Assembly: GCA_903853385.1 (NCBI GenBank)
Contig: CAINTJ010000053.1
Location: 1-64,000, forward strand
Reading direction: 5' to 3'
From: an uncultured Gammaproteobacteria bacterium
Lineage (GTDB): Bacteria; Pseudomonadota; Gammaproteobacteria; Pseudomonadales; Pseudohongiellaceae
DNA length: 64,000 bases
The first letter of the stretch is position 1. Every line of letters starts with the position of its first letter. Under the pieces are notes generated by a model that saw nothing but the letters and a program-made list of their open reading frames with translations, did not search any database and was not told the DNA's origin. Both the position numbers and the translations under genes were made by a program. Positions 19,671 to 34,903 of this stretch are shown in pieces.

Positions 19671-19781
19671 GGCCTTGGGTCGATGAGTGCTTCGGAAACT
19701 GTCTGAGGCCATGGATGGCCGAAGCAAGCCTACAAGGACGTACTTGCGGCGTGTTTCAGAAGCACTCATCGGCCCAAGACC
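19671..19781. repeat. Structured intergenic element, copy 1
   Basis: Outer arms 19671-19699 and 19753-19781 pair over 29 bases with about three mismatches. The 53-base core contains a palindrome GGCCATGGATGGCC and a second hairpin GCAAG...CTTGC. The core recurs at 33721-33774 with different but again complementary arms. It lies between the dioxygenase stop and the flavoprotein gene, so it may end the dioxygenase transcript. Confidence 0.75.
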
Positions 19782-28159: not shown

Positions 28160-30181
28160 TCAACTTGCCAGACTGTAAATGGCTCCTGTGCGTGCCGGCA
28201 AAGCCAATGTAAGCATCAGGCTGGATCGGGCCGTCATGAGTTCAGCTGGCAATTTGTCGGCCCCCACACCACAGACCAGGTGATAACAGCGATTGCCACC
28301 AACCCGCAAACTGAGCGATTCAGAGGGTTGCTCACCAAAATTCACCAGAATCAGCATGTTTTCAGCCGCATGGCGACTCATACGTTCAAACACGCAGATT
28401 TCTGGCGTCGCCAGCAGCACATTGATGCCTTCGTGGCTGGCATCTTGTTCATAAAGACTGGGGCTGTGCAGATATAACAGATTGAACTGGCGCAACAAGG
28501 CCAGTGACTCGGCTGACAGCGCCGGTGCCAGTTGCAGCTCAAAATCATGACCACTTTCCGGCGGCCAATTGCGGCGGACTGACAAGCGGCACTCCAGCTG
28601 CAAGAGTTTGCGGGCCGGCAGGGTCCACAAGGCCAGCAACAACAGTTGCAGCTGACGCTCTCGCAGCGCCGGGGCTGGTGCAAATGCGGCCAGTTGTTGC
28701 ATGCCATTGCCGTCCTGCCATTTTTGCAGCATGCCGGCGAGATCCAGGCTGAATTGTTGTTCTGACAACGGCCGCATCAGCGAACACCCTGCGGCATCCA
28801 TGCGAAAATCGAAACCAAGACCGCCTTGGCGCGGCGACTTGGTGAACTCCGCCAAGGCCAGACCGGAGTCAAGCACCAGCAACAAGGCCGGGTAACGTTC
28901 ACGCAATTGCAACAACAGCGCAGCCAGCCATTCGTGGGCATAAAGATCGATATCAGATTCGGGTCGCCGCTTGAGTCCTCTGGAGGCTGCGCCGGCCGCA
29001 GGGGTAAGCAAAGGATCAACATCACACAAACGGAAACCATCGATGTGCATATGAATGTGCCAATAGCCAATACAAGCGCTGACCATGGTCATCAACGCCC
29101 CGCCGATCGTGGCCCAATCGATACCCTCACCAGTACCCGGGACCAGACCATGCGCGTTCAGCAGTGCTACCAGCGAGAAATCCCACAGCACCCCCAATTC
29201 CTGTTCATGGGCCTGTTCCACAAAAATCTGCAATTCGGCGTTGGAGCCCAGCAGCGCGGCTGCGGTCAGTAGCGCAGGTTGCCGGCGCTGGCCTTTGATT
29301 GCACAGGCCTGGGCATCACGCAACAATACATGGGTAAAGCCATGGTCCTTCAGCTTTGGCAATACCAGTGCCGCTAATTGTGGCCAATGCACTCCGCTTT
29401 CCTGCAAGGCATCTGTCAAGACCAGCTCCATGATGGTGATCGGAACCGCCTGTCCAGCCTGGTTGCTGTGCATCAGCAGCCAGAAATGATCACGCCAGGT
29501 TCTTGCCGCAAGCGTGTCCACGCGTGAGCAACTCGCCGGTTGCACATCCACTTGTCGTGCAAACGGATCAAAATCCAGCACCTGGGTTTCATGCTGACTG
29601 TTCATCACTTCAAACTTGTAGGCTGAGTGCAGTGGCAACCCTGGCACAAACAGTTCCCACAAGCCGGCCTTCGGATGGGGATACATCAGATGCACCCGGC
29701 CATCCCATCCGGAAAGTTGCAACAGCACGGAAACTCGACTGGCAGTGGGCGCCCACAGCACAAAATGCACACCTTCGACGCCATCTATGGTGCGGAGATG
29801 GGCACCCACAAAATGCCAGGCGGCTTCATGGCGACCCAGACTGAAGAGCTGCAGCTCGGAAGCATCAAGATTGTTGCGAAACCGGTAGGGATCATCCATC
29901 AGCACCGTGCTGACACCATCACTGACCCGCAAACGGTAAGGCAGGACTTTGTTACCGGCGAAGCTGCCTGAGAACAAACCCTCGGCATGCAATTGCTGCA
30001 ACACAGCCAACACTTTTTTACCGTTGCTGCTGAGCACTTCCACCGTGTGGGCTCCAGGCAGGAATACGGTAACGGACAGTTCGCCATTGCCGGCCTTGTG
30101 CATTCCCATGATCTGGGCGAAAGCGGCACAACGACCCTTGATGATCTGGTCAATTAATTTGGAGGTGAACATCACGGGCAT
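28160..30181 (-). CDS. Degenerate glycogen-branching-enzyme homologue (GH13 pseudoenzyme?)
   Basis: From ATG 30181 (or ATG 30172) the protein has about 673 residues, close to GlgB (728). The N-terminal CBM48/GlgB modules are well kept: FVGAHLRTIDGVEGVHFVLW and LSGWDGRVHLM (about 124-165), KYEI-like AYKFEVMN at 188. The GH13 barrel is eroded: the nucleophile Asp of the DGxRVD motif is Cys386 (HIDGFRLCDVDP), the acid Glu region reads LVLDSGLALAEF, and the SHDE region cannot be found. It is therefore probably not a branching enzyme; it might bind glucan or act structurally. It stands just upstream of the ATP-grasp/alpha-E pair on the same strand. Confidence 0.8.
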   Translation of the reverse strand: MPVMFTSKLIDQIIKGRCAAFAQIMGMHKAGNGELSVTVFLPGAHTVEVLSSNGKKVLAVLQQLHAEGLFSGSFAGNKVLPYRLRVSDGVSTVLMDDPYRFRNNLDASELQLFSLGRHEAAWHFVGAHLRTIDGVEGVHFVLWAPTASRVSVLLQLSGWDGRVHLMYPHPKAGLWELFVPGLPLHSAYKFEVMNSQHETQVLDFDPFARQVDVQPASCSRVDTLAARTWRDHFWLLMHSNQAGQAVPITIMELVLTDALQESGVHWPQLAALVLPKLKDHGFTHVLLRDAQACAIKGQRRQPALLTAAALLGSNAELQIFVEQAHEQELGVLWDFSLVALLNAHGLVPGTGEGIDWATIGGALMTMVSACIGYWHIHMHIDGFRLCDVDPLLTPAAGAASRGLKRRPESDIDLYAHEWLAALLLQLRERYPALLLVLDSGLALAEFTKSPRQGGLGFDFRMDAAGCSLMRPLSEQQFSLDLAGMLQKWQDGNGMQQLAAFAPAPALRERQLQLLLLALWTLPARKLLQLECRLSVRRNWPPESGHDFELQLAPALSAESLALLRQFNLLYLHSPSLYEQDASHEGINVLLATPEICVFERMSRHAAENMLILVNFGEQPSESLSLRVGGNRCYHLVCGVGADKLPAELMTARSSLMLTLALPARTGAIYSLAS

Positions 30182-30327
30182 AGGTTTACAGGGGTGGCCG
30201 GGCAATGCAGTCTGCCATAGGACGGTCGCAAAAACTGCTGCAGAGTTTAGCCGGTGGCCGACAGCGGTTATGCCGACACAAATGCAGCACTTTTCTTTTG
30301 AATACCGCACAACAGCCGCAAGAGGGC

Positions 30328-30355
30328 TTGACTTTAAAGGCAATATAACTATCCT
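30328..30355 (+). promoter_or_regulatory. Candidate promoter for the ileS leader
   Basis: TTGACT (30328-30333) and TATCCT (30350-30355) are separated by 16 bases; a second -10-like TATAAC sits at 30344-30349. Either would start transcription within a few bases of the leader-peptide ATG at 30363. Tentative. Confidence 0.35.
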
Positions 30356-30362
30356 GACCTGC

Positions 30363-30425
30363 ATGAAATACGCACAAACCTTCGCCATATACCGTTTTAT
30401 TATTCAGCACCGCACGGTGGGTTGA
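30363..30425 (+). CDS. Putative ileS leader peptide (20 codons, three Ile codons)
   Basis: The frame MKYAQTFAIYRFIIQHRTVG (20 residues) ends in TGA just before an attenuator-like structure. It carries ATA at 30387 and the pair ATT ATT at 30399-30404. A ribosome stalled there would cover bases up to about 30412 and leave 30416-30423 free to pair with the terminator's left arm. No Shine-Dalgarno is seen; translation may be leaderless. This is inferred from geometry. Confidence 0.5.
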   Translation: MKYAQTFAIYRFIIQHRTVG

Positions 30426-30473
30426 AGGCTTAGGCACATGCAAAACCCGCCCTTCGGCGGGTTTTTTGTTTTT
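30416..30473 (+). terminator. Attenuator: antiterminator/terminator pair ahead of ileS
   Basis: The intrinsic terminator has the stem AAAACCCGCC (30442-30451), a CTTC loop and GGCGGGTTTT (30456-30465), with a T-rich tract to 30473. The upstream segment GGTGGGTT (30416-30423) can pair with AACCCGCC (30444-30451) over eight bases (one G-T), which would break the terminator. CACC/GGTG at 30408-30419 could form the competing first hairpin. The gene starts 20 bases after the T tract, in a divergent intergenic region, so no upstream gene needs this terminator. Confidence 0.7.
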
Positions 30474-30492
30474 GACAGGCCCGGAGATCAAT

Positions 30493-33400
30493 GTGAGTAC
30501 CGATATGCACAACAGTGCCGACACTGACGAGCGTCAGGAGTTGTCCGGCAGCGACAGCTTTTCCTTTGTAAAAGCAGAGCATGCTGTGCTGCAGTTCTGG
30601 CGTGAGCACAATGTGTTCCAGCGATCGCTGGATCAAACCAGACAGTGCCAACCCTATATCTTCTATGACGGCCCGCCCTTTGCCACCGGCCTGCCCCATC
30701 ACGGCCATCTGGTCGGCTCCACGCTCAAAGACATTATTCCGCGCTATTACACGATGCAGGGCTTCTATGTGCAGCGGCGCTTCGGTTGGGACTGTCACGG
30801 GCTGCCAATCGAACACGAAATTGACAAATCGCTGGGCATGAGCGCACAGCAGGCGGTCGCACAGATGGGCATCAAGGGCTACAACGATGCCTGTCGCGGC
30901 ATCGTGCAGCGCTTTACCACCGAATGGGAAAAAACCATCACGCGCATCGGCCGCTGGGTAGACTTCCGCAATGACTACAAAACCATGGACCCCTCATTCA
31001 TGGAATCAGTGTGGTGGGTAATGCAGCAGTTGTGGCAGAAAGACCTGATCTACCGCGGCGTCAAAGTAGTGCCGTTTTCCACTGCCCTCGGCACCGTGCT
31101 ATCCAATTTCGAGGCCGGCTCCAACTATCAGGACGTGCAGGATCCTGCCGTCACCGTGCTGTTCAAACTGACAGACGAAGATGCCTATGTGGCAGCATGG
31201 ACTACAACACCATGGACGCTGCCGTCCAACCTCGGCTTGTGTGTGAACGCCGGTATTGATTATGTACTGGTGCAGGAAACAGACAGTGGCCGCAAGATCT
31301 ATCTGGCGCAAGCCCGCCTTGAAGCTGTCGGCAAAAACAAGCAACTGACCGTGCTGGCCACCGTGGCGGGCACGGCCATGGTCGGCAAACATTATCAGCC
31401 GCTGTTCCCGTATTTCAGCAATCTCGCCGCTGATGGTGCTTTCCGCATCTTCGCTGACGACTATGTCACCACCGACAGCGGTACCGGCGTGGTACATCTG
31501 GCGCCCGCCTTTGGTGAAGACGATTTCCGGGTGATGAAAGCCAACGGCGTCAAAGCCGTGCCGTGTCCGATTGATCTTGAAGGCAAGTTCACCGAGGAAG
31601 TCAGTGACTATGCTGGCGTCTACGTAAAAGAAGCCGACAAGGCGTTGATCCGTCGCCTGAAAGAAGAAGGCAAACTGTTCCATCAGGACGTGATCGTGCA
31701 CAGCTATCCGTTCTGTCCTCGTTCGGATACACCCATTCTGTACCGCACCATCCCGTCCTGGTATGTCAAAGTCGAGCAAATGCGCGATCGGCTGGTAGCC
31801 AACAACCAGCAGATCAACTGGGTACCCGACCACATCAAGAACGGCCGCATGGGCAACTGGTTGGCGAATGCGCTCGACTGGTGTATCTCGCGCAACCGCT
31901 ACTGGGGAACTCCGTTGCCGATCTGGATCAACGATGTCAGTGGCAAAGCCGTTTGCCTCGGCTCGATAGCCGAGCTGGAACAATACTGCGGAGTGCGGGT
32001 GCATGATCTGCATCGTGAATATGTCGACGACCTCACCTTCACCCAGCCCGGCGAAACCGGCATCTATCGGCGGGTGCCGGAAGTGCTCGACTGCTGGTTT
32101 GAATCCGGCTCGATGCCATATGCGCAACTGCACTACCCGTTCGAAAACCAGCAATTGTTTGCAGCCGGCTTCCCGGCTGAATATATCGCTGAAGGTCTCG
32201 ATCAGACCCGCGGCTGGTTCTACACCCTGCTGGTACTGAGCACTGCGCTGTTCGACAAACCTTGCTTCAAGAATGTGATCGTCAACGGCATCGTGATGGC
32301 TGAAGACGGCAAGAAAATGTCGAAACGCTTGCAGAACTACACACCGCCCGACATTCTGATGGAAGAATACGGTGCCGATGCACTGCGCCTGTATCTGATC
32401 AACTCCGGCCTGGTCAAAGCCGAAGAGCAACGCTTCAGTGATGCCGGCGTCAAGGACATGGTGCGGCGCGCCCTGCTGCCCTGGCTCAACTCGTTCAGGT
32501 TTCTGCAGACCTATGCCGACATCGACCAATGGCGCGCACTGGCCGACGCCCCGGCTTCTGCCAACATCACAGACCAGTGGATACTTTCACGTCTGCAATC
32601 ATTGCTCGGCTCAGTGACTACAGAAATGGCTGCCTACAAGCTCTACAACGTGGTGCCTGCCTTGTTTGAGTTCATCGAGGATCTTACCAACTGGTATATC
32701 CGGCTCAATCGCAGCCGCTTCTGGGTCGAAGGTGAATCTGCCGACAAGAGCGCCGCTTATCAGACGCTGTATCAGACTCTGCATGCGCTGACGCTGGCGA
32801 TGGCACCATTTGCTCCGTTTCTGGCCGAACACATTTATCAGTTGCTGCTGCCCTATGCACCTGCCGATAGAGAGCAACCTGAGTCCGTACATCTGTGCCG
32901 CTATCCCAATGGCAACCCCGCACTGATCCAGACCGCACTGGAAGCAGCGGTAGCCCGCATGCAAGCCATCATCTTGCTCGGCCGCCAAAAACGTAACCAG
33001 GTCAAGATCAAGACCAAAACACCGCTGGCATGCCTCACCGTCATCCACCGCGATCAAGCGATGCTTGATGAAATCAAGCGGCTGGAGAGTTACATCAAGA
33101 GTGAGCTGAATATTAAAAGCGTACTTTACACCCGCAATGAAGAGGACTTCATCAGCCTGTTTGCCAAACCCAATTCCCCGGTGCTGGGCAAACGTCTGGG
33201 CAAGGACTTCGGCAAGTTTCGCGGACTGATCGAGCGACTGGATTCTGCCTCCTTGAACACATTGCAGGAAACCGGATCTGTCGCCATCAATGGCATCGAT
33301 TTCAGCAGTGAGGACATCCTGGTGTTCCGTGAAGCCAAACCTGGCACTGACACCATATCCGACCGACTGATCTCCATCGATCTTGATTGCACCTTGCTGC

Positions 33401-33666
33401 CGGCACTGGTGCAGGAAGGGCTCGCCCGCGAAGTCGTCAACCGCATCCAGAAATCGCGCAAGGAACTCGGCTTCAAAGTCACGGATCGCATTTGTATCAG
33501 CTACACAGCATCACCTGAGCTGGAAGCTGCGATCAAAATACATGCGAACCATATCCAGCAAGAAACACTGGCTGTGCAGCTCCAACCCCTTGCTGTCAGC
33601 GACACCGCGCTCCATTTTGAAATTGACGAACACACTTTGGAACTGGAACTGAAAGTAATTTCCTGA
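30493..33666 (+). CDS. ileS: Isoleucyl-tRNA synthetase, type 2 (eukaryote-like)
   Basis: The start is GTG 30493, six bases after GGAG, giving 1057 residues. The class I signatures are HHGH at 69-72 (GLPHHGHLVGST) and KMSKR at 608-612. The length and the motif PFATGLPHHGH place it in the IleRS2 group; E. coli-type IleRS1 is about 940 residues and reads ANGDIHIGH. IleRS2 enzymes are generally much less sensitive to mupirocin. Editing (CP1) domain residues lie at about 190-400. It charges tRNA-Ile in the cytoplasm. Whether the genome also has an IleRS1 cannot be seen here. Confidence 0.95.
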   Translation: MSTDMHNSADTDERQELSGSDSFSFVKAEHAVLQFWREHNVFQRSLDQTRQCQPYIFYDGPPFATGLPHHGHLVGSTLKDIIPRYYTMQGFYVQRRFGWDCHGLPIEHEIDKSLGMSAQQAVAQMGIKGYNDACRGIVQRFTTEWEKTITRIGRWVDFRNDYKTMDPSFMESVWWVMQQLWQKDLIYRGVKVVPFSTALGTVLSNFEAGSNYQDVQDPAVTVLFKLTDEDAYVAAWTTTPWTLPSNLGLCVNAGIDYVLVQETDSGRKIYLAQARLEAVGKNKQLTVLATVAGTAMVGKHYQPLFPYFSNLAADGAFRIFADDYVTTDSGTGVVHLAPAFGEDDFRVMKANGVKAVPCPIDLEGKFTEEVSDYAGVYVKEADKALIRRLKEEGKLFHQDVIVHSYPFCPRSDTPILYRTIPSWYVKVEQMRDRLVANNQQINWVPDHIKNGRMGNWLANALDWCISRNRYWGTPLPIWINDVSGKAVCLGSIAELEQYCGVRVHDLHREYVDDLTFTQPGETGIYRRVPEVLDCWFESGSMPYAQLHYPFENQQLFAAGFPAEYIAEGLDQTRGWFYTLLVLSTALFDKPCFKNVIVNGIVMAEDGKKMSKRLQNYTPPDILMEEYGADALRLYLINSGLVKAEEQRFSDAGVKDMVRRALLPWLNSFRFLQTYADIDQWRALADAPASANITDQWILSRLQSLLGSVTTEMAAYKLYNVVPALFEFIEDLTNWYIRLNRSRFWVEGESADKSAAYQTLYQTLHALTLAMAPFAPFLAEHIYQLLLPYAPADREQPESVHLCRYPNGNPALIQTALEAAVARMQAIILLGRQKRNQVKIKTKTPLACLTVIHRDQAMLDEIKRLESYIKSELNIKSVLYTRNEEDFISLFAKPNSPVLGKRLGKDFGKFRGLIERLDSASLNTLQETGSVAINGIDFSSEDILVFREAKPGTDTISDRLISIDLDCTLLPALVQEGLAREVVNRIQKSRKELGFKVTDRICISYTASPELEAAIKIHANHIQQETLAVQLQPLAVSDTALHFEIDEHTLELELKVIS

Positions 33667-33691
33667 CCAGGAAACTATCACTGCACTCGCA

Positions 33692-33803
33692 GGCTTGGAG
33701 CAGGTATTGGTTTCTGCGACCGTCTGAGGCCATGGATGGCCGAAGCCGAGCCTACAGGGACGTACTCGCGGCGTGTCGCAGGGGCCTATACCTGCTCCAA
33801 GCC
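33692..33803. repeat. Structured intergenic element, copy 2
   Basis: Arms 33692-33720 and 33775-33803 pair (GGCTTGGAGCAGGTA with TACCTGCTCCAAGCC outside, TGCGAC with GTCGCA inside). The core 33721-33774 is nearly identical to that of copy 1 and has the same GGCCATGGATGGCC palindrome; the second small hairpin changes from AAG/CTT to GAG/CTC. It sits between ileS and the DAHP synthase gene and may end the ileS transcript. Confidence 0.75.
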
Positions 33804-33844
33804 ACCAGATGAACCCATTGAAAAAAATTGGAGAGAGCAAAGTA

Positions 33845-34903
33845 ATGAACGCCACCACCGACGACACCCGCATCGTAGCCATGAAAGAACTGTCCTCACC
33901 GCGCCAGGTGATCGACGAACTACCGATCACTGCTGCGGCCACCAACACCGTGCTGAGCACACGCACCGCCATCCAGAACATCCTGCGCGGTGAAGACAAA
34001 CGCCTGCTGGTGATCGCCGGCCCTTGTTCAATACATGATCCTGCCGCAGCACTGGATTACGCCAGCCGCTTGCAGACGCAGATCAAGCATTTTGAACAAG
34101 AGTTGCTGATCATCATGCGCGTCTATTTTGAAAAACCCCGCACTACGGTGGGCTGGAAAGGACTGATCAATGATCCTGGCCTGGATGACAGCTTCCGCAT
34201 CAATGACGGCCTGCGTCTGGCCCGCAAATTATTGCTGGAACTGGCTGATCGCGGCATCGCATCAGGCACTGAATTTCTCGACCTGATCAGCCCACAATAC
34301 ATTGCCGATGTAGTGTCGTGGGGAGCCATCGGTGCCCGCACCACCGAATCACAATGTCATCGCGAGCTGGCTTCCGGCTTGTCGTGTCCGGTTGGTTTCA
34401 AAAACGGCACCGGCGGCACCATCCAGATTGCAGTTGATGCGGTCGGCTCGGCAGCCCATCCCCATCATTTCCTGTCGGTTACCAAGGAAGGTCATTCCGC
34501 AATTTTTCAAACGGCTGGCAATCCCGATTGCCACGTGATTTTGCGCGGCGGCAGTCGTCATCCCAACTACGATCCCGAAAGCATTGCAGAAACCACCGAG
34601 CGTCTGGAAAAATCCGGGTTGAAACCGGCCATTGTGGTTGATTGCAGTCATGCCAATTCCGGCAAGGATCCGGCGCGCCAGGCCGTTGTGTGTCGCGATC
34701 TGGCTAGCCAGATTGCTGCAGGTTCAACGGCGATTGTCGGCCTGATGCTGGAAAGTCATTTGGTGGCAGGCGCGCAAAAACTGGTAAGTGGCAAGCCTTT
34801 GACTTACGGCCAGAGCATTACTGACGCGTGCATGGGCTGGAATGAAACAGTTGAATTGTTTGAAGTATTGGCTAACGCAGTTCGACAAAGCAGGATGGCT
34901 TAG
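33845..34903 (+). CDS. 3-deoxy-7-phosphoheptulonate (DAHP) synthase, class I
   Basis: From ATG 33845 (GGAGAG upstream) the enzyme has 352 residues, the size of E. coli AroG (350). It condenses phosphoenolpyruvate and erythrose 4-phosphate, the first step of the shikimate pathway. Signatures are LVIAGPCSIHD (about 59-69), MRVYFEKPRTTVGWKG (about 93-108), GFKNGTGG and ILRGG, with metal and PEP ligands in DCSHANSGKDPARQ. Which aromatic amino acid inhibits it cannot be read safely, so no AroF/G/H letter is given. An in-frame extension back to 33773 overlaps the structured repeat and is unlikely. Confidence 0.93.
   Translation: MNATTDDTRIVAMKELSSPRQVIDELPITAAATNTVLSTRTAIQNILRGEDKRLLVIAGPCSIHDPAAALDYASRLQTQIKHFEQELLIIMRVYFEKPRTTVGWKGLINDPGLDDSFRINDGLRLARKLLLELADRGIASGTEFLDLISPQYIADVVSWGAIGARTTESQCHRELASGLSCPVGFKNGTGGTIQIAVDAVGSAAHPHHFLSVTKEGHSAIFQTAGNPDCHVILRGGSRHPNYDPESIAETTERLEKSGLKPAIVVDCSHANSGKDPARQAVVCRDLASQIAAGSTAIVGLMLESHLVAGAQKLVSGKPLTYGQSITDACMGWNETVELFEVLANAVRQSRMA

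Follow-up and report, generated by a model that had tools for sequence, protein, structure and literature searches.

A putative isoleucine leader-peptide attenuator upstream of ileS2 and aroG in Pseudohongiellaceae, with a possible second input from phenylalanine and tyrosine codons

The window studied here, 64,000 nt of contig CAINTJ010000053.1 (positions 1 to 64,000; assembly GCA_903853385.1) from an uncultured gammaproteobacterium of the Pseudohongiellaceae, contains a gene for a type 2 isoleucyl-tRNA synthetase, ileS2, preceded by a short leader with the build of an isoleucine (Ile) attenuator (Table 1). The leader open reading frame (ORF), as read directly from the sequence, comprises 20 codons from the ATG at 30363 and stops at the TGA at 30423-30425; its Ile codons are ATA at 30387-30389 and ATT-ATT at 30399-30404. 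Downstream lie the element GGTGGGTT and an intrinsic terminator with AACCCGCC in its left arm. The terminator stem (30442-30465) has 10 pairs and a loop of 4, with a T-rich tail behind. The positions given to the ORF, its Ile codons, both pairing motifs and the terminator by a first-pass annotation, made from the sequence alone, all proved exact on rereading.

Table 1. Features of the ileS2-aroG locus in the window
Feature	Position	Strand	Remarks
sigma70-like promoter TTGACT-16-TATCCT	30328..30355	+	-35 TTGACT, 16-nt spacer, -10 TATCCT
Inferred transcription start	30362..30363	+	At or a few nt from the leader ATG; inferred from the -10 spacing
Leader peptide ORF MKYAQTFAIYRFIIQHRTVG, then stop	30363..30425	+	Ile, Phe and Tyr codons; same leader type in 21/21 family genomes with upstream DNA
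Control region	30381..30404	+	Codons Phe7, Ile9, Tyr10, Phe12, Ile13, Ile14
Candidate 1:2 (anti-antiterminator, protector) hairpin	30404..30425	+	Predicted -9.4 kcal/mol; evidence weak
Antiterminator 5' element GGTGGGTT	30416..30423	+	Abuts the leader stop codon; pairs with the terminator left arm
Intrinsic terminator	30442..30473	+	Left arm contains AACCCGCC (30444-30451)
ileS2, type 2 isoleucyl-tRNA synthetase	30493..33666	+	GTG start; TIGR00392, 939.8 bits
Dispersed repeat with 29-nt inverted ends	33692..33803	+	Between ileS2 and aroG; 22 genome matches including itself
aroG, 3-deoxy-7-phosphoheptulonate (DAHP) synthase	33845..34903	+	TIGR00034, 518.1 bits, over cutoff

The alternative pairing of GGTGGGTT with AACCCGCC, suggested in the first-pass annotation, is supported in the window and kept in most family leaders. 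Pairing of the 45 nt upstream with the left arm of the terminator reaches a predicted -13.7 kcal/mol against a mean of -8.5 for shuffled sequences (p 0.003), and the fold of 30363-30470 has a z of -3.43, equalled by 0 of 200 shuffles. The predicted energies are -14.9 kcal/mol for the antiterminator and -16.2 kcal/mol for the terminator. The geometry fits the switch proposed there, in which a ribosome stalled at the Ile codons frees the element and one at the stop codon covers it. With a footprint of about 14-16 nt, a ribosome whose A site holds the second ATT would reach downstream to about 30413-30415, just short of 30416; one on the leader stop codon would cover the element.

It should be noted that scanning for terminators and promoters is by itself no evidence, since the number of sites does not exceed that in shuffled sequences: the scanned kb held one terminator-like site (shuffles 0.9 +/- 1.0) and one promoter-like site (0.6 +/- 0.8), which is the chance level. 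With about one terminator-like site per kb expected by chance, the hairpin might be the ordinary terminator of an upstream or antisense transcript standing next to a chance ORF. We regard this as extremely unlikely: the upstream gene (branching-enzyme-like, with scores under the cutoffs) is divergent, as the first-pass annotation had it, all 21 family leaders have the complete unit, and 30 of the 37 leaders compared also have the promoter. A chance terminator was rejected on this conservation of leader, element and terminator together.

The promoter is the sole promoter-like site in 29800-30800 and sits upstream of the leader ORF, with 7 nt between the -10 box and the ATG. A search of 37 leaders that permitted 4-11 nt between the -10 box and the start codon found a -35/-10 pair with at least 8 of 12 matches in 30 of them, the -10 box lying 6-9 nt ahead of the start codon; among the remaining seven, six promoters score 7 and one leader has none. 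Given this spacing, the transcript in the window probably begins at the leader ATG or no more than a few nt away from it, and the leader ORF is probably devoid of a Shine-Dalgarno sequence. The same spacing in the 30 leaders suggests that the leader mRNA is leaderless.

To describe conservation, ileS2 was searched in 95 relatives. It occurs at 80% identity or more in 22 genomes (own genome included) from three genera of the window's family, hereafter the family genomes; in the other 73 the best match has at most 34% identity, mostly with the length and score of a type 1 ileS. When the 22 family genomes were queried with a type 1 ileS, nothing but ileS2 and lower-scoring synthetase-like genes matched, and a 23rd genome returned the query's own source at 100%. 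ileS2 thus looks like the sole isoleucyl-tRNA synthetase gene of these 22 genomes, four of which (G002, G005, G006, G008) are less than 90% complete. The upstream DNA can be read in 21 of them, the contig of G008 beginning 8 nt upstream of ileS2. A leader ORF with Ile codons (two to five in each), the element and the terminator are present in all 21, own genome included. This conservation as one unit supports the earlier view that regulation is the simplest explanation of the terminator. The element stands opposite the terminator arm with full or near-full pairing in most family leaders and partial pairing in six g2 leaders.

Beyond the family the unit is less regular. Among 80 named ileS2 loci, an Ile leader with a terminator was detected in 24, eight of them family genomes already counted; that leaves 16 of 72 non-family loci, among them Marinomonas rhodophyticola, M. 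spartinae, Veronia nyctiphanis, a Natronospirillum metagenome-assembled genome (MAG) and OM182 and K189A MAGs. The comparison with relatives proposed in the first-pass annotation therefore holds within the family, where 21 of 21 keep both the Ile codons and the element opposite the terminator arm, and only in part further out, where the unit is often absent (56 of 80). In an ileS2 tree (FastTree, 94 sequences, rooted at the midpoint, no support values printed) the leaders are confined to two neighbouring branches, where 11 further loci lack a detected leader. A number of these 11 are nested, and we read the nested ones as losses of the attenuator. One locus nested among attenuator loci (L099) has a hairpin AAGAAACCCGCC..GGCGGGGTTCTT upstream of ileS2, without a T run and without a leader by the detector, and looks like a decayed attenuator. 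In the Pseudoalteromonas and Vibrio ileS2 loci L094 and L095, the last ~100 nt upstream are nearly identical and no attenuator was detected, perhaps reflecting a recent transfer.

The RNA structures were evaluated on an alignment of the 37 leaders, 21 from the family and 16 from other ileS2 loci. Their common architecture is a short Ile-containing leader ORF, a GGTGGGTT-like element and a terminator AACCCGCC..GGCGGGTT-T(n). In the terminator 97.8% of cells are paired and two pairs have changed on both sides; its paired cells and covariation score together are matched by 0 of 500 shuffles. In the antiterminator 90.8% of cells are paired, against 36.9-57.3% in slid versions; one pair changes from G-C to A-U in four sequences and to G-U in one, and 2 of 500 shuffles reach its covariation score. 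A duplex p of 0.05 for the antiterminator is reached in 23 of the 37 single leaders; in L008 and L085 the 45 nt used in this test contain little or nothing of the element. The element overlaps the leader stop in some leaders and follows it in others, and in the Marinomonas leaders it lies inside the ORF in a different frame. As it is kept while the stop shifts in place and frame, the element is conserved as RNA.

Several observations weigh against attenuation or weaken its support. No leader was found by the detector at 56 of the 80 named loci, three of which have another terminator-like hairpin, and at least two Ile were built into the leader filters (in the 80-locus detector, within the last 14 residues). 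Covariation in the antiterminator is confined to one pair, and its shuffles hold 89.8% paired cells, 4 of 500 as high as the real value. The antiterminator duplex misses p 0.05 in 14 of 37 leaders, and the six g2 leaders carry GGGCGG, which pairs only partially in this register. The 1:2 hairpin is paired in 75-76% of cells across the 37 leaders with covariation not above shuffles; being paired in many leaders and lacking covariation, it was dropped as a required part. Finally, for the RNA through 30470 with a ribosome on the Ile codons, the terminator is still the predicted minimum (-18.7 kcal/mol, against -14.9 for the antiterminator alone). Since the terminator belongs to the predicted minimum of this RNA at any ribosome position, the decision of the switch must fall during synthesis and depend on its order. 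A decision during RNA synthesis is typical of known attenuators.

Based on the anatomy of the leader, its conservation, the pair changes in terminator and antiterminator, the gene order and the codon make-up, all seen in the sequences compared, we consider ribosome-mediated transcription attenuation of ileS2 by Ile through a leader peptide to be the best explanation, and a very probable one. An Ile leader ORF, a terminator before the first gene and a mutually exclusive antiterminator that a stalled ribosome would free are all present, the last being weaker in the six g2 leaders. We suggest the following course. RNA polymerase would start at or near the leader AUG, and the leader would be translated from the transcript end. 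When translation runs freely, the ribosome at the stop codon would cover GGUGGGUU, the terminator would form and transcription would stop before ileS2. When charged tRNA-Ile is scarce, the ribosome would stall on the Ile codons just upstream of GGUGGGUU; this element would pair with AACCCGCC as soon as the latter emerges, the terminator would come too late, and ileS2 and aroG would both be made. A shortage of charged tRNA-Phe or tRNA-Tyr may be a further inducer of the operon within the window's family.

As in erm leaders, the peptide itself, perhaps in combination with a drug, could conceivably stall the ribosome, and not the starved codons. Several of the family peptides, e.g., AIYSIFIFIIRR, look similar to hydrophobic arrest peptides such as ErmCL. 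However, the non-family peptides are plainly Ile-rich with varying neighbours (IIIII, IIRII, IISII), and Ile leaders also stand ahead of Ile-synthesis genes (cimA-like, ilvA-like), which fits codon sensing; nascent-peptide arrest is thus very unlikely.

Turning to the genes behind the leader, the next-best models for ileS2 were those of the mupirocin-type synthetases MupB and MupA, both under their cutoffs. The gene aroG is likely the second gene of the ileS2 operon. In all 14 loci retrieved from relatives it is the next gene after ileS2 and has the same orientation (one contig, L043, holds only its first part), and the adjacency is seen in 18 of 22 genomes when the window and hit positions in G008, G018 and G032 are added to these 14 loci. 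In the 16 non-family ileS2 leader loci no aroG was found in the 3.2-5 kb available downstream. The gap between the two genes is 178 nt in the window, which includes the dispersed repeat, versus -4 to 86 nt in the 14 relatives, and no terminator-like site was found on the + strand in 33560-33900. A partial second copy of the repeat lies at 19698-19754 of the window.

The leader codons differ with the genes that follow. Within a codon window that spans nine codons and closes with the cluster's last Ile, the 21 ileS2-aroG leaders have 71 Ile, 42 Phe, 25 Tyr, 3 Leu and 5 Val among 189 codons; the 16 ileS2 leaders without aroG have 79 Ile, 3 Phe and 2 Tyr among 144. The third set comes from the family itself, where every one of 15 loci inspected, drawn from 15 of the 22 genomes, has an Ile leader ahead of a cimA-like gene; its best model is (R)-citramalate synthase, under the cutoff (625.4 vs 950 bits). 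In the window's own genome this second Ile attenuator (L218, contig C142, 106613-106692, - strand) has the leader MHIHTLLLAPRMITGNIITGVCLRVG. The 15 cimA leaders contain 62 Ile, 1 Phe and 0 Tyr among 135 codons. Phe and Tyr together (F/Y) thus make up 67 of 189, 5 of 144 and 1 of 135 codons, respectively. At least two F/Y codons occur in 21 of 21, 1 of 16 and 0 of 15 leaders, and whole leaders contain 76, 17 and 4 of them. Two attenuators of the same build in one family therefore differ in their codons as their operons differ in their genes. In the ileS2 tree the aroG loci form one clade, and the sister is Natronospirillum, whose MAG (L077) has an Ile leader with one Tyr and no aroG within 4.3 kb after ileS2.

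In the window's lineage, both codon sets lie in the control region and genes of both kinds stand in the operon. It is possible that the Phe/Tyr codons add a second input to the attenuator; we put the chances of such a response at about even, because the association with aroG arose only once on the tree. Besides this single event, other points speak against a second input. The F/Y frequencies are near those predicted from the U-rich windows (F 0.222 vs 0.207, Y 0.132 vs 0.091), so the counts alone do not demonstrate enrichment over a composition null; in a shifted frame the same bases give 65 F/Y and 40 Leu among 168 codons. The adjacency of aroG is not visible for 4 of the 21 leaders (G002, G005, G007, G037), where the contigs end. 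For eleven aroG homologues outside the three genera (L064-L074, a subset of the many listed), 360 nt were inspected by eye and no convincing combination of F/Y leader and terminator emerged; an ancestral aromatic leader imported together with aroG was rejected on this ground.

The competing view is that Ile alone is sensed, Phe and Tyr being a tolerated filler of a U-rich unstructured stretch. The near-expected composition, the equal F/Y frequency in the shifted frame and the single gain of aroG all agree with it, as does the cluster-end Ile, which is kept while its neighbours vary (in L020, a Phe follows the last Ile). Yet Leu and Val, as reachable from Ile codons, are rare (3 and 5 of 189), Leu being far below the 0.187 per codon that composition predicts, whereas Tyr, two steps from ATT, makes up 25 of 189. 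Moreover, F/Y codons hardly occur in this codon window in the cimA leaders of the same family or in the ileS2 leaders of other lineages. We consider sensing of Ile alone a serious possibility, somewhat short of even. The wider proposal would be that an Ile-only ancestral leader, read as leaderless, gained Phe/Tyr codons after aroG arrived behind ileS2, and that the resulting two-input attenuator forms part of a broad group of such Ile switches in Gammaproteobacteria (ileS2, cimA, ilvA, P-loop kinase, SnoaL-like), partly filed as Rfam P9; taken as a whole, this could equally well be right or wrong.

The extent of this set was explored with a covariance model built from the 37 leaders and run on 390 genomes of the order and 369 of the class. 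Matches at E 0.001 were obtained in 130 and 57 genomes, respectively, many to the terminator end only. An Ile leader is present in 28 of 38 match loci inspected and absent from the remaining 10, most of which are weak matches. The 28 leaders precede ileS2 (2), ilvA-like genes (8), a small P-loop kinase (11), a SnoaL-like gene (6) and a GNAT-like-looking gene (1). These genes were named by eye from their protein starts, and one 70-residue start of each of the ilvA-like, kinase and SnoaL-like types was scanned. The ilvA-like start passes Pfam PALP (45.1 vs 35 bits); the kinase and SnoaL-like starts were under all cutoffs, the former weakly resembling a 'DNA topology modulation protein'. The kinase was seen behind Ile leaders such as MNTQRTQTTGRIIIIIP at L163, L164, L167, L168, L170-L172, L175, L176, L180, L181, L217, L227 and L229-L238, and the SnoaL-like gene behind leaders such as MNAANRTFQQIITTIAPMVG at L173, L174, L179, L185, L187, L188, L225, L226, L228 and L240; both lists contain some sites twice.

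The 3' halves of these leaders match Rfam RF00624, 'Pseudomonas sRNA P9', a model independent of our alignment. Its 43-bit gathering cutoff was exceeded in 7 of 14 loci scanned, including the Marinomonas ileS2 leader L123 at 53.1 bits. The window leader is not a member (25.7 bits); in its own genome the top two matches are the cimA leader and the window leader (26.7 and 25.7 bits), both under the cutoff. A search of 293 genomes of the order yielded 18 matches at E of 1e-5 or below, spread over 17 genomes; nine of the 18 exceeded the cutoff. No match at this level came from 14 well-known control genomes; at an E of 1 the control run gave matches in 5 of the 14, none over the cutoff. All 18 lie behind a same-strand leader ORF with at least two Ile, the limit for listing a leader, and ahead of a gene: the kinase (11), a SnoaL-like gene (4), ilvA (2) or cimA (1). 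The strongest, at 86.3 and 84.4 bits, are the two ilvA loci. Because 18 of 18 matches follow an Ile leader, the best reading of P9, from loci other than its own in P. aeruginosa, is that it represents the 3' half of such an attenuator.

Rfam files P9 as type Gene, and a trans-acting small RNA gene of this kind might by chance stand upstream of ileS2 with no switch in cis. Such a gene is highly unlikely here, given the position of all 18 matches between an Ile leader ORF and a gene (two ilvA-like, one cimA-like) and the score of the window under the P9 cutoff. A released P9-like attenuated RNA could act in trans as well.

Among known systems, E. coli pheST with its pheM leader is closest: in this gammaproteobacterial operon, too, a synthetase is controlled by leader-peptide attenuation by its own amino acid. 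The window differs in the synthetase and amino acid, in the apparently leaderless leader, in the mixed codons and in the aromatic-synthesis gene of the operon. The thrABC and ilvGMEDA attenuators are multivalent, one leader sensing more than one amino acid. Their amino acids belong to linked pathways, whereas Ile and Phe/Tyr belong to unrelated ones, joined by the operon only. Leader ORFs that start at the transcript 5' end are known from trpL of Sinorhizobium and from Corynebacterium; these share the 5'-end start but differ in class or phylum and in amino acids. The element and terminator of the window fit the RF00624 model, and P9 matches lie behind Ile leaders; that entry differs in being filed as a small RNA gene and not as an attenuator. 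PMC1262725 names pheST, predicts classical attenuators before trpS and leuS in Streptomyces and places T-boxes before ileS in Actinobacteria. Like the proposed switch, an ileS T-box controls ileS by the charging of tRNA-Ile, but T-boxes read the tRNA directly with no leader translated, whereas the window switch would translate one. No T-box matched at gathering score in the window and none down to E 1 in L001. The Rfam Trp, Thr, Leu and Phe leaders gave no match in the window and only sub-cutoff matches in other loci. With nothing over cutoff, identity with a T-box or a known Rfam leader was rejected.

In the literature searched, which was seen in part, we found no ileS leader-peptide attenuator in Proteobacteria, the comparative surveys likeliest to describe one lying outside its coverage, no ilvA leader-peptide attenuator in Pseudomonas and no account of sRNA P9, 'P9' alone being too short as a search term. 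The first-pass statement that no such ileS attenuator is described in Gammaproteobacteria was thus uncontradicted by these sources, and priority is unproven. As far as they reach, three points are new: ileS2 as the target, a leader of mixed codons that goes with aroG, and the connection with P9.

These results provide an isoleucyl-tRNA synthetase gene with an attenuator that is conserved, testable and unrelated to T-boxes. They also suggest that what Rfam lists as a small RNA acts in cis as an Ile attenuator, and they give a regulatory clue to the P-loop kinase and SnoaL-like genes, for which a response to isoleucine supply would be expected. The leader codons that track the operon genes, with Ile-only and Ile plus Phe/Tyr leaders in the same genomes, constitute a natural experiment. 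If the two-input reading is true, one switch would report when charged tRNA runs short for three amino acids whose pathways are unrelated, and it would jointly drive a synthetase and the entry enzyme of aromatic synthesis.

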